Source: a virus | IMG/VR virus record: IMGVR_UViG_3300037508_000364 | Location: 1 to 38,236 of that record | DNA: 38,236 bases | Direction: 5' to 3' (one strand) | In this document: positions 19,374 to 32,943 of the stretch, one piece after another | Position numbering within the stretch: the first letter of the stretch is position 1 | Layout: every line of letters begins with the position of its first letter | The notes under the pieces: model-generated | Seen by the model: only the letters and a program-made list of their open reading frames with translations | Database searches by the model: none | What the model was told of the DNA's origin: nothing | Position numbers and translations under genes: made by a program

Positions 19374-19589
19374 TCATTTATCTTTTTTAGATTTTACGGT
19401 AAGTCCAAAAATACTATTTAGCAAAACTGCAAATGCCATTAAGCCCCATGCCTCGACATAATCAATGTATGGCAGATTAAAAATATTTGGTATCAGCCAA
19501 TTCCACATTATGTACACCGGAACAGATATAAATGCCAGTGCAAAGGCAGAGGCAAGGATGGAGATGGCAATTTCTTTAATTTCTTCCAT
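19374..19589 (-). CDS. Small membrane protein between terminase subunits
   Basis: A 71-aa protein with two hydrophobic segments (about residues 8-32 and 45-63) and a Lys-rich C-terminus. The short linker NIFNLPYIDYVEAW separates them. The family is unknown. A membrane protein placed among packaging genes is unusual and could be a superinfection-exclusion or lysis-related protein, but nothing in the sequence decides this. It starts three bases after the small terminase stop. Confidence 0.6.
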   Translation of the reverse strand: MEEIKEIAISILASAFALAFISVPVYIMWNWLIPNIFNLPYIDYVEAWGLMAFAVLLNSIFGLTVKSKKDK

Positions 19590-19592
19590 GAT

Positions 19593-20042
19593 TTAGTTCA
19601 TTTTAAGAAGTTTGGCTATTTCATCTTCCTCATCACCACTACCATCCTGGAAATACTCCAAGGTAAGTCTGGATTTAGGATCTAAACCTAAAGTTTTTGA
19701 TAATTCAAGAAATAACTCAAATCCTTGCTTAAATGCAGTCCATTCGGCACTTACCTGCCTTGCACCGTTAGGATGCACCATAACTGCGCCATCTTTGCTC
19801 AATATCTCGGCATTGTGCAATAAATGACCTATGGCACGCGCTGCAATTGAAAGGTAAATCTCATCTACTTGCTTTCCAGCCTTGTGAAGATGGAGGTGTT
19901 CACGGATTCTGTTGTATATTCTTTGCTCACCTGCGTCAAGGTTGAACATAGGCTCACCAATTTCACCGGGAGTGAATGTCTTAACGCGTGATTTCTCCAA
20001 GGTGCCTTGGAGTAGTTTTGTCTTTATGCTTTTTTGTGCCAT
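19593..20042 (-). CDS. terS: Terminase small subunit, P27 type
   Basis: A 149-aa protein. It has the N-terminal basic segment, the helical core LDAGEQRIYNRIREHLHLHK, VDEIYLSIAARAIGHLLHNA, and the conserved end VHPNGARQVSAEWTAFKQGF, followed by LGLDPKSRLTLEYFQ, all matching phage terminase small subunits of the P27/Terminase_4 family. It recognises the packaging site and recruits the large subunit. It lies 91 bases downstream of the HNH gene; the short gap and the GC-rich HNH 3' end could contain the packaging site. Confidence 0.9.
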   Translation of the reverse strand: MAQKSIKTKLLQGTLEKSRVKTFTPGEIGEPMFNLDAGEQRIYNRIREHLHLHKAGKQVDEIYLSIAARAIGHLLHNAEILSKDGAVMVHPNGARQVSAEWTAFKQGFELFLELSKTLGLDPKSRLTLEYFQDGSGDEEDEIAKLLKMN

Positions 20043-30630: not shown

Positions 30631-31533
30631 ATGCTTAAATTACCAAAAGAACATTTATCTGTATCACAGATTAACCTATGGGAGAGCGATCCTATTGCCT
30701 ACCAAAAGAAATACTTTATCGGCATTCCCGATCCTCCTTCGCCTTTCCTTGAATTTGGCAAACAATTTGCAAAGGACATAGAAGACTATGCTGCCGGTGT
30801 TCAAAGAGATTTTAACTTTCCAGAAGGCTTTTTAGACATTACTTTAATTTATCCTTATGTAGAATATAAATTAGAACATGATTTTGGAGATTTTAAGATG
30901 CTTGGCTATATTGATAATATGAGTAAAGATTATGAGCTGGTAGTTGATTTTAAAACAGGCACCGCGCCATGGTCAACACAGCGACTGCAGGAATCTTTGC
31001 AAATGCAAACATACTCATTAATACTTTGGTATCAATTTGGAGTTATTCCGACTTCTATTATATCATACTGGAAAACAAAACTTCGAGGCAAAACATTGTC
31101 CTGGGCCGGTGAACATGAAAGTTTTATGTATGTGTTTAATACAGAGGAATTAACTGCCACAGAGGCAAGAATAAGGAAAGCAGCGAAAGAGATAAGCGAG
31201 GCATACGAAAGATACCAGGATAGCTACATTGGTGAGTTGATGGCAAGGTATGCGGAGATTACAAAAGAGTTAAAGGATTTGGAATATAGAAGAGATAAAA
31301 ATAAAGATCAGTTGACACTTTTACTAAAGGATAATAAAATGGCTATGGATGTACATGGTTGTTTAGTATCTTATTCTACTTATAAAAGAAAGTCATACAC
31401 CTTTTCTAATAATATAATAGATAAGGAATATGAGATTGAGCAAATGAAAAGAGAGGAGATAAACACTGGTATAGCGGAGGAGAAAACAAAAACAGTCACA
31501 CTTATACTAGTCAAAGATGAAGGAGTGGAATAG
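30631..31533 (+). CDS. PD-(D/E)XK exonuclease, RecB/Cas4-like
   Basis: A 300-aa protein. It begins with LPKEHLSVSQINLWESDPIA, the typical first helix of the PDDEXK_1 group, then FLEFGKQFAKDIE (Glu41), GYIDNMS (Asp95), LVVDFKTGT with Asp106 and Lys108, and LQMQTYSLILW as the Gln-containing helix. These are the catalytic elements of RecB-type nucleases. The C-terminal third (residues 190-300) is helical. It is likely a phage exonuclease for recombination or host DNA breakdown. No annealing partner of known type is evident nearby. Confidence 0.88.
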   Translation: MLKLPKEHLSVSQINLWESDPIAYQKKYFIGIPDPPSPFLEFGKQFAKDIEDYAAGVQRDFNFPEGFLDITLIYPYVEYKLEHDFGDFKMLGYIDNMSKDYELVVDFKTGTAPWSTQRLQESLQMQTYSLILWYQFGVIPTSIISYWKTKLRGKTLSWAGEHESFMYVFNTEELTATEARIRKAAKEISEAYERYQDSYIGELMARYAEITKELKDLEYRRDKNKDQLTLLLKDNKMAMDVHGCLVSYSTYKRKSYTFSNNIIDKEYEIEQMKREEINTGIAEEKTKTVTLILVKDEGVE

Positions 31534-31927
31534 TAAGATGCTGGAGATACAGGCATTCTGTGAAGAAGTAAATGCCTGGATAACTACTGCGCCATCGGCA
31601 GAGATGTTGGATGAGTGCGACGAGTACCTCCGGCAGTTATCTGCCTACTATTCAAGGTACACAGTAATAAGCGGAATGAATGAAAGTATATTTGCCCAGA
31701 TGATGATGATTTGCATTAGAGATATGCCAGAGGAGGAGTATAAAAGAATAAAGCACTCTTCTACTTTGACTGACTACTATGTAAAAGGTAAGTATCCTAA
31801 AGCTACTGCCATCTTTGAGCAATGTAGAGCAGTGCAAAAGTTATTATTAGTAACGTCTGATAATTACAGGACATTGTTAAGTAGCTTTAGACAAGAGAGA
31901 ATATTAGTAGGCCACATGGCTACATAA
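31517..31927 (+). CDS. Hypothetical protein after the exonuclease
   Basis: A 136-aa helical protein (MLEIQAFCEEVNAWITTAPS, EMLDECDEYLRQLSAYYSRY, ATAIFEQCRAVQKLLLV). It starts at 31517 with a 17-base overlap, or at 31538 just after the exonuclease stop. Gene order suggests a partner of the exonuclease, but no known annealing-protein motif is visible. It ends at the 359-nt gap. Confidence 0.6.
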   Translation: MKEWNSKMLEIQAFCEEVNAWITTAPSAEMLDECDEYLRQLSAYYSRYTVISGMNESIFAQMMMICIRDMPEEEYKRIKHSSTLTDYYVKGKYPKATAIFEQCRAVQKLLLVTSDNYRTLLSSFRQERILVGHMAT

Positions 31928-32286
31928 GACATTTGCAGACCTCGGAGTCAAGTGAAGTGTATGAGCGGATTAAACATTTCTTTCGGCTTGATTGCGTCAG
32001 AGGATGAATTGGCAGCCTGGAACAGACAGGTAATTAGCAAGGTGGCGAAAGGTATCGCCAGGGCTAACCGTGTACGCAAGCTACCCAACGTTGAGCGGTG
32101 CACAAGCAGGTTCGATTCCTGCCCTTGCTGCCCTACAAAAGGCAGACGTTAAACCAGAGTGAAATAGATGGTGGTAATATTTCTAAAGTCTGTATTGTAC
32201 CACTACTTACTACCCGAAGGTTGAGCAATGCTGGCACCGTGCGTTGATAAAGGGATGGAACGGTGTAAATTTTAAACCTCTCTTAA
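31928..32286 (+). other. 359-nt gap with several hairpins and a tRNA-like element
   Basis: No convincing gene fills this gap. A GTG-started 66-codon frame (31952-32152) covers part of it, but its last third is a read-through of the tRNA-like T arm. Besides the tRNA-like element, GTGGTA (32171-32176) pairs with TACCAC (32198-32203), and GCACCGT (32234-32240) pairs with ACGGTGT (32260-32266). There is no U-run, so these are not terminators. The block is less AT-rich than the flanking genes. It may be one larger structured RNA. Confidence 0.5.
32036..32130 (+). tRNA. tRNA-like element without a recognisable anticodon arm
   Basis: A perfect 7-bp acceptor stem (AGCAAGG 32036-32042 with CCTTGCT 32123-32129), then T8-G9, a D arm GCGA-AAGGTA-TCGC (32045-32058) with the conserved A14, G18-G19 and A21 equivalents, and a T arm GCAGG-TTCGATT-CCTGC (32106-32122). 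The discriminator is G, and CCA is not encoded. The 47 nt between D and T arms contain no 5-7-5 anticodon arm in any register I tried. An alternative stem joins 32070-32077 to 32095-32103 with one bulge. It may be a tRNA relic, a tRNA mimic, or a class II-like tRNA with an insertion. Confidence 0.5.
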
Positions 32287-32943
32287 ATGTCTAATAAAAT
32301 GAAAGTAGAACTTTTAGAAATATTTGGAAACGATGACATGGTAGCTAATGCCGCCCGCGTTTCGTATGGCAAGGAAGCCAGCAATTACACTGTGGAGCAA
32401 AATGAGAAGCTGATAAAATACCTTGCAGAACATAATCACACCTCTCCATTTCGCCATCCACAGTTACAATACCGGATAACTTGCCCTATTTATGTAGAAA
32501 GGCAGTTGTTTAAACACCAGGTAGGTTTAACTGCTAATTCAATATCTGGTAGATATGTAGATTTTAAAGATAACTATTACAAAATAGAAGATTTTAGGAT
32601 ACAGAGTAAAAGTAGTAAGCAAGGTAGCGGAGGACATTTAGATGAAGTAGATAATGTTATAGCGTTAAAAATGCAAGATGCTGTAATAAGTTATTGCGCC
32701 ACTGCCTACCATGAGCTCTTGCAATTGGGAGTGGCAAAGGAACAAGCTCGCACTATTTTACCTTTAAATTTGGAAACTACTTTTATATGGACAGGTAGTT
32801 TATTAGCTTATATAAATTTTTGGAAGCTAAGAATTACAAGAGATACACAATTTGAAACTATGCAAATAGCACAGGAAATGTTACATGAGTTAAAATTGCG
32901 GACTAATATGTTTGAACATTCACTAAAAGCATTTTATTTATGA
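32287..32943 (+). CDS. thyX: Flavin-dependent thymidylate synthase (ThyX)
   Basis: A 218-aa protein of the ThyX family, making dTMP from dUMP with FAD and methylene-folate. Seen are VANAARVSYGKEA, LAEHNHTSPFRHPQLQYRIT, the substrate/FAD loop RQLFKHQVGLTANSISGRYV (residues 72-91) and QARTILPLNLETTFIWTGSL. The signature usually written RHR-x7-S reads KHQ-x8-S here. Both outer Arg are replaced and the spacing is one longer, a divergent form. It overlaps the next gene by ATGA, forming a nucleotide-metabolism group. MKVELLEIFG at 32299 is an alternative start. Confidence 0.92.
   Translation: MSNKMKVELLEIFGNDDMVANAARVSYGKEASNYTVEQNEKLIKYLAEHNHTSPFRHPQLQYRITCPIYVERQLFKHQVGLTANSISGRYVDFKDNYYKIEDFRIQSKSSKQGSGGHLDEVDNVIALKMQDAVISYCATAYHELLQLGVAKEQARTILPLNLETTFIWTGSLLAYINFWKLRITRDTQFETMQIAQEMLHELKLRTNMFEHSLKAFYL

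Follow-up and report, generated by a model that had tools for sequence, protein, structure and literature searches.

What is a tRNA-like gene for when the part that would read a codon is missing? One locus in the window, by which we mean the whole stretch of 38,236 nucleotides analysed, raises this question. The window, a contig of 38.2 kb, comes from a tailed phage, with genes for terminase, portal, major head protein and tape measure at its left. In the gap between a 136-aa open reading frame (ORF; 31517-31927) and thyX (32287-32943; Pfam Thy1) lies a tRNA-like element (TLE) on the plus strand, 94 nt long (32036-32129), with G at 32130 as the discriminator. The acceptor stem pairs AGCAAGG (32036-32042) with CCTTGCT (32123-32129) through 7/7 Watson-Crick pairs, and the two strands are paired across the family. 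U8 and G9 follow at 32043-32044. The D arm GCGA-AAGGTA-TCGC (32045-32058; stem 32045-32048 with 32055-32058, loop AAGGUA) carries A14, G18G19 and A21, and the T arm GCAGG-TTCGATT-CCTGC (32106-32122) is perfect, with 32106-32110 paired to 32118-32122 around the loop UUCGAUU. The 3′ acceptor strand runs on into G73 and C74 (32123-32131); CCA is not encoded, and positions 15-48 are A-A. Thus the 7-bp acceptor, D arm, T arm and conserved loop bases of a canonical tRNA are all present, but the anticodon arm is absent. No anticodon hairpin of 5 bp and 7 nt can be drawn in the 47 nt from the D arm to the T arm, ARAGORN found zero tRNA in the window, and Rfam gave no match over the gathering score. 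Covariance models run with relaxed settings likewise produced no normal anticodon arm; the best relaxed Rfam match, tRNA-Sec (RF01852; E=0.005 in 401 nt), was rejected at 25.8 bits against a gathering cut-off of 47. The sequence-only reading had described just such an element, with canonical acceptor, D and T arms and no anticodon hairpin, and was correct with every part where it had placed it; the element proves to belong to a widespread family.

The minimum-energy fold of the TLE (-38.7 kcal/mol, z=-2.35) includes the bulged stem that had been suggested for its middle. In this helix (S2, 32070-32103), positions 32070-32077 pair with 32095-32096 and 32098-32103 around a bulge at 32097, and the helix stops 2 nt short of the T stem; one of its pairs, U-G, is U-A in relatives. 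S2 is crossed by a possible helix S1 (32061-32086), in which GGG at 32061-32063 faces CCC at 32084-32086, giving a pseudoknot layout; S1 is weak, with 3 bp only, and shows one G-U variant (L115). A scan for acceptor, D and T arms together returned a single match in the window with a score of 16.8, while 150 dinucleotide shuffles of the whole window, searched on both strands, gave a top score of 14.0 and none of 14.5 or more. A 66-aa ORF (31952-32152) runs through the TLE. A protein-coding reading of it was rejected, as the frame is lost in near-identical relatives: it stops after 30-43 codons in L004, L006, L013 and L014, and a homologous start is missing from six other relatives that were examined. 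Pfam gave no match to the ORF.

Other structured modules surround the TLE. Directly behind the 136-aa ORF, an element at 31928-32030 is conserved in 70/81 regions (window counted); its hairpins change on both sides, between TCAAG/CTTGA and TAGGATG/CATCCTA and between GCCTG/CAGGC and ATCTG/CAGAT, and it has no Rfam match. Behind the TLE lie two modules (32130-32203 and 32210-32265), each potentially an H-type pseudoknot, with crossing helices AGAC/GTCT and GTGGTA/TACCAC in one and CCC/GGG and CACCGT/ACGGTG in the other; both recur among relatives in differing order. A guanosine-rich hairpin (GACAGC..GGAAAGAC..GC) stands just 5′ of the window TLE, likewise just 5′ of the TLE of Bacteroides phage BS-TP2 (L369:2460-2490) and near that of a Sphingobacterium prophage (L183); it was rejected as a general 5′ partner, preceding only a minority of TLEs. 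An attachment site was also rejected: the neighbouring proteins scanned include no integrase, and the TLE is located between operon genes.

The 136-aa ORF, used as bait, recovered 80 relatives, giving 81 regions with the window. Many of these regions carry behind the ORF a TLE with the same acceptor and a very different middle, the offset from acceptor to T stem ranging from 46 to 136 nt. Three relatives (L004, L005 and L007) have flanks almost identical to the window and no TLE at that place, so that the TLE is a dispensable module. In three others (L029, L053 and L068) the ORF is followed by AGCAAGG...CCTTGCT ends enclosing a long internal hairpin, without a D or T arm. Pattern scans over viral contigs were then made for the acceptors AGCAAGG/CCTTGCT and AGTCAGG/CCTGACT, which yielded, respectively, about 80 distinct TLEs lacking the anticodon arm, grouped into 38 insert families, and at least 141 distinct ones of the same kind; both acceptor sequences were our own choice, so their conservation is no evidence. 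Across the family TLEs measure 68-190 nt, and several from relatives pass the Rfam tRNA cut-off despite the absent anticodon arm. TLEs of the AGTCAGG class are also found among canonical phage tRNAs. Larger phages carry canonical tRNAs beside their TLEs, with 16 to 35 tRNA-model matches in 10 of the 12 contigs searched. Named carriers are a Sphingobacterium cellulitidis prophage, a Saprospiraceae MAG, phage BS-TP2, which infects Bacteroides salyersiae and whose TLE lies at an unannotated place, 19550-19656 of PQ571275, and Tenacibaculum phage pT24, in which two TLEs are annotated 'tRNA-Undet'. In pT24 (L371, 190743-193768) tRNA-Sup and tRNA-Undet genes are adjacent, and both Undet genes have an enlarged anticodon region. 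In crAssphage cr4_1 (L370:430-681) a group I intron over the Rfam cut-off lies near an unannotated tRNA-like element. Against deposited phages, a 361-nt query matched only through a 25-nt T-arm fragment in two records, and the 136-aa ORF gave zero matches.

Constraint on the tRNA body was scored at positions outside the search patterns. T-stem pairs 49-51 occur in several paired types across the family. A14 is kept in 81/82 TLEs of the AGCAAGG class and, among the matches listed, in 134/141 of the AGTCAGG class. Positions 15 and 48 covary, with A:U 58, G:C 8, A:C 0 and G:U 0 in the former class and A:U 113, G:C 5, A:C 7 and G:U 1 among the matches listed for the latter. The 3′ end of the AGTCAGG class, again among the matches listed, shows A73 in 132/141 and C74 in 137/141, C75 not being conserved; canonical tRNAs of these loci have the same N73-C74 end (C74 in 139/141). 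The T-stem compensation, the 15-48 covariation and the N73-C74 end indicate that the tRNA body is under tRNA-like constraint. A subset of TLEs departs from the usual elbow: an 8-nt T loop is associated with a D loop lacking GG (odds ratio 31, p=3e-6; with each insert family entered a single time, odds ratio 7, p=0.03), with p-values that are optimistic since the sequences are related. It looks as if the elbow contact had been lost on both sides together. TLEs with the 8-nt T loop (TATCRA), mostly also without GG in the D loop, occur in L031, L049, L057, L059, L064, L069, L113 and others. Two reverse-strand TLEs (L173 and L182) have structured D-loop insertions besides the middle insert.

The inserts are conserved and paired in their own right. 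The window's insert recurs almost unchanged in 12 further contigs, beside a T stem that reads GCAGG/CCTGC, TCGGG/CCCGA, TTGGG/CCCGA or GCGGG/CCCGC; one variant has a mismatch, and TCGGG/CCCGA and GCGGG/CCCGC are compensatory. In the seven distinct sequences of this insert family, 98.4% of pair cells are paired, compared with 37-52% when the partners are slid. Both-side changes occur in only two pairs, both in the T stem. Insert covariation had been named as a check; the window's own insert varies too little for a strong test, but other inserts do covary. Compensatory changes among them include GGTGGA/TCCACC to GATAGA/TCTATC together with GTCGCGAC to GTTGCAAC, ATC/GAT to AGC/GCT, and CGCA/TGCG to CGCT/AGCG or, in L064, to CGCG/CGCG. 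Helix and pseudoknot layouts were counted in inserts of at least 36 nt and compared with 60 shuffles, mononucleotide only. A helix whose end lies no more than 5 nt from the T stem was present in 26/31 families of the AGCAAGG class (shuffles: mean 13.1, maximum 21) and a pseudoknot layout in 23/31 (mean 10.2, maximum 16). Among the matches listed for the AGTCAGG class the counts were 60/99 (mean 35.5, maximum 48) and 47/99 (mean 25.4, maximum 37). By these predicted folds, an H-type pseudoknot with its last helix set against the T arm is possible in many inserts. Inserts are also exchanged. In five insert families one insert sits on different scaffold states, and the window's insert precedes three different genes (thyX, a methyltransferase-like ORF recognised by eye and a third ORF), and is hence not tied to one neighbour. 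Some inserts (in L020, L115, L128, L043 and L045) contain a second T-arm-like hairpin, for example AACGG-TTCGAGT-CCGTT, a sign that they may have grown as tRNA pieces were nested or fused. A long antisense guide was rejected for the Sphingobacterium prophage insert, which has no long match elsewhere in the host genome. The sequence-only reading had also considered a decayed tRNA, and this origin did not hold up: the acceptor and T stems of relatives show no random decay, the T stem shifts by compensation beside an insert almost invariant over 13 contigs, and other insert families have compensatory pairs of their own.

Within TLEs only tRNA models of Rfam respond, and assignment to another known RNA family was therefore rejected. 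Among known RNAs, class II tRNAs (tRNA-Leu/Ser type; RF00005) resemble TLEs in the acceptor, T arm, 15-48 pair and encoded N73-C74 end and in the D arm, many TLE D arms being GCGGAATTGGTAGACGC and Leu/Ser-like. TLEs differ from them in having no anticodon arm and, in its place, an exchangeable structured insert of 20-110 nt; they are unable to read codons, and their function must lie elsewhere. The tRNA-like domain of tmRNA also lacks an anticodon arm and is joined to pseudoknots, as in TLEs, but TLEs have a paired D stem and reach only 68-190 nt. The anticodon of tmRNA is described as missing in PMC2481249. Neither ARAGORN nor Rfam called a tmRNA (RF00023) in the window or the TLE-bearing loci, the only traces being two 15-nt scraps far under the cut-off. 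Engineers have built a similar layout: in the tRNA scaffold used in E. coli, foreign RNA replaces the anticodon arm and the tRNA body stabilises it. TLEs differ from it in being natural and evolving. The scaffold serves to make recombinant RNA in E. coli (PMC3753655). RNA viruses have tRNA-like structures, viral folds that imitate tRNA and are in some cases joined to pseudoknots (PMC5723415); those are parts of RNA genomes or mRNAs, whereas TLEs are genes of DNA phages and have a full acceptor/D/T set with many different inserts. The structured noncoding phage RNAs GOLLD and ROOL (PMC12286853) are much larger, and TLEs have no Rfam match to them. A description of the TLE family was not found in Rfam or in the open-licence literature and may exist elsewhere. 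As far as found, the tRNA body is known, and what is new is that a library of structured, exchangeable inserts stands in for the decoding arm.

By comparison of their sequences, TLEs keep the acceptor, D arm, T arm, 15-48 pair and N73-C74 end as in true tRNAs and bear exchangeable, structured domains in place of the anticodon arm. The explanation that we tentatively favour, giving it a little less than an even chance, is that the TLE is a small phage RNA released by the host's tRNA-maturation enzymes, its tRNA body presenting a payload that acts in trans and is plausibly a decoy. The TLE would be transcribed inside the operon leader and handled as a pre-tRNA by host RNase P, RNase Z and CCA-adding enzyme to give a stable RNA of ~95 nt. 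The tRNA body would protect and present the inserted domain, and that domain, rather than decoding, would be the function. Maturation by tRNA enzymes is suggested by the constraint on the scaffold, and that the insert is what is selected is suggested by the conservation, diversity and exchange of inserts; their diversity also suggests an arms race. The target would most likely be a host protein, which the insert would decoy or inhibit, because inserts are diverse, swap between phages and are independent of the neighbouring gene. Several observations count against a payload acting in trans. In the AGCAAGG class C74 is weaker (54/82) and the 1-72 pair is mismatched in 22/81. In the window itself the insert shows little variation, the pseudoknot helix comprises only 3 bp, and positions 15 and 48 are both A.

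The genomic setting of the AGCAAGG class gives the main rival, a cis role, its strength. Here the TLE would be a leader or 'tRNA punctuation', either an RNase P and RNase Z cleavage site between co-transcribed genes or a structured 5′ element that both protects the mRNA downstream and defines where it starts, and the inserts would provide stability and have no target of their own. The next downstream gene is co-directional in 76/77 cases with a downstream ORF, even where the upstream neighbour is divergent, a regularity explained as well or better by a cis role than by one in trans. A good number of these TLEs stand 15-18 nt ahead of a start codon or 6-17 nt past a stop, and the same leaders hold further structured modules. 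Left unexplained, however, are the conservation, diversity and exchange of the inserts and the TLEs that lie among canonical tRNAs, and near-identical phages do without a TLE at the same place. On this balance we consider a purely cis role somewhat unlikely, if still a serious contender.

The scaffold itself might instead be the active part, titrating or blocking a host protein that reads the elbow or acceptor, such as a tRNA-targeting toxin, a synthetase or a modification enzyme, and being armless so that anticodon nucleases cannot cut it. The conserved elbow, acceptor, 15-48 pair and 3′ end, together with the absent anticodon arm, fit such a decoy. Nuclease evasion has been proposed for phage tRNAs whose anticodon loops are altered (PMC10264068), though those keep the anticodon arm and TLEs do not. 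A pure decoy of the tRNA body has no need of conserved structured inserts, however, and a subset of TLEs has lost the usual elbow, which makes this explanation quite unlikely. Real decoding tRNAs with an unusual or interrupted anticodon arm, functional for example after removal of the insert, are very unlikely. Some relatives do have near-canonical arms (GTGACAA in a 5-bp stem in L128; a 6-nt loop in the 50-type), but most TLEs are without any 5-bp/7-nt arm, one acceptor is common to different TLEs in one genome, and a group I intron would not fit in many of the inserts; in the window and the TLE-bearing loci searched, no Intron_gpI match falls inside a TLE insert, the sole one (L370) being outside any TLE. 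That the locus is a decaying tRNA, or folds this way by chance within coding or intergenic DNA, is hardly credible. In favour of such a reading, nothing interrupts the 66-aa frame in the window, and L116 and L147 likewise have long ORFs running across the element; but that frame is broken in relatives, the family as a whole keeps its pairing and tertiary constraints, and 0/150 shuffles come close.

For an insert acting in trans, a phage RNA offers a published model. Escape mutants of phage PhiTE use a pseudo-ToxI RNA to suppress the defence toxin ToxN (PMC5449768). A pseudoknot RNA made by a phage and directed against a host toxin is what we propose, by analogy only, for the inserts; pseudo-ToxI and type III RNA antitoxins differ from TLEs in that the tRNA body is absent there, and no Rfam antitoxin RNA family matched the window or the TLE-bearing loci. 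By analogy, Bacteroidota phages at least may possess natural arsenals of tRNA-scaffolded RNAs, made by the host's tRNA-maturation machinery, in which every exchangeable pseudoknot insert counters a host target of its own, for instance RNA-guarded defence toxins, as pseudo-ToxI blocks ToxN. We put this forward as a speculative extension that is, taken whole, unlikely. If the explanation favoured above is right, a large class of phage RNAs now annotated 'tRNA-Undet' or left unannotated would be no defective tRNAs but a modular system of RNAs whose different inserts number well over a hundred. This would bear on why phages carry non-decoding tRNA-like genes, and TLEs would be a natural counterpart of the engineers' tRNA scaffold and candidate RNA counter-defence factors.
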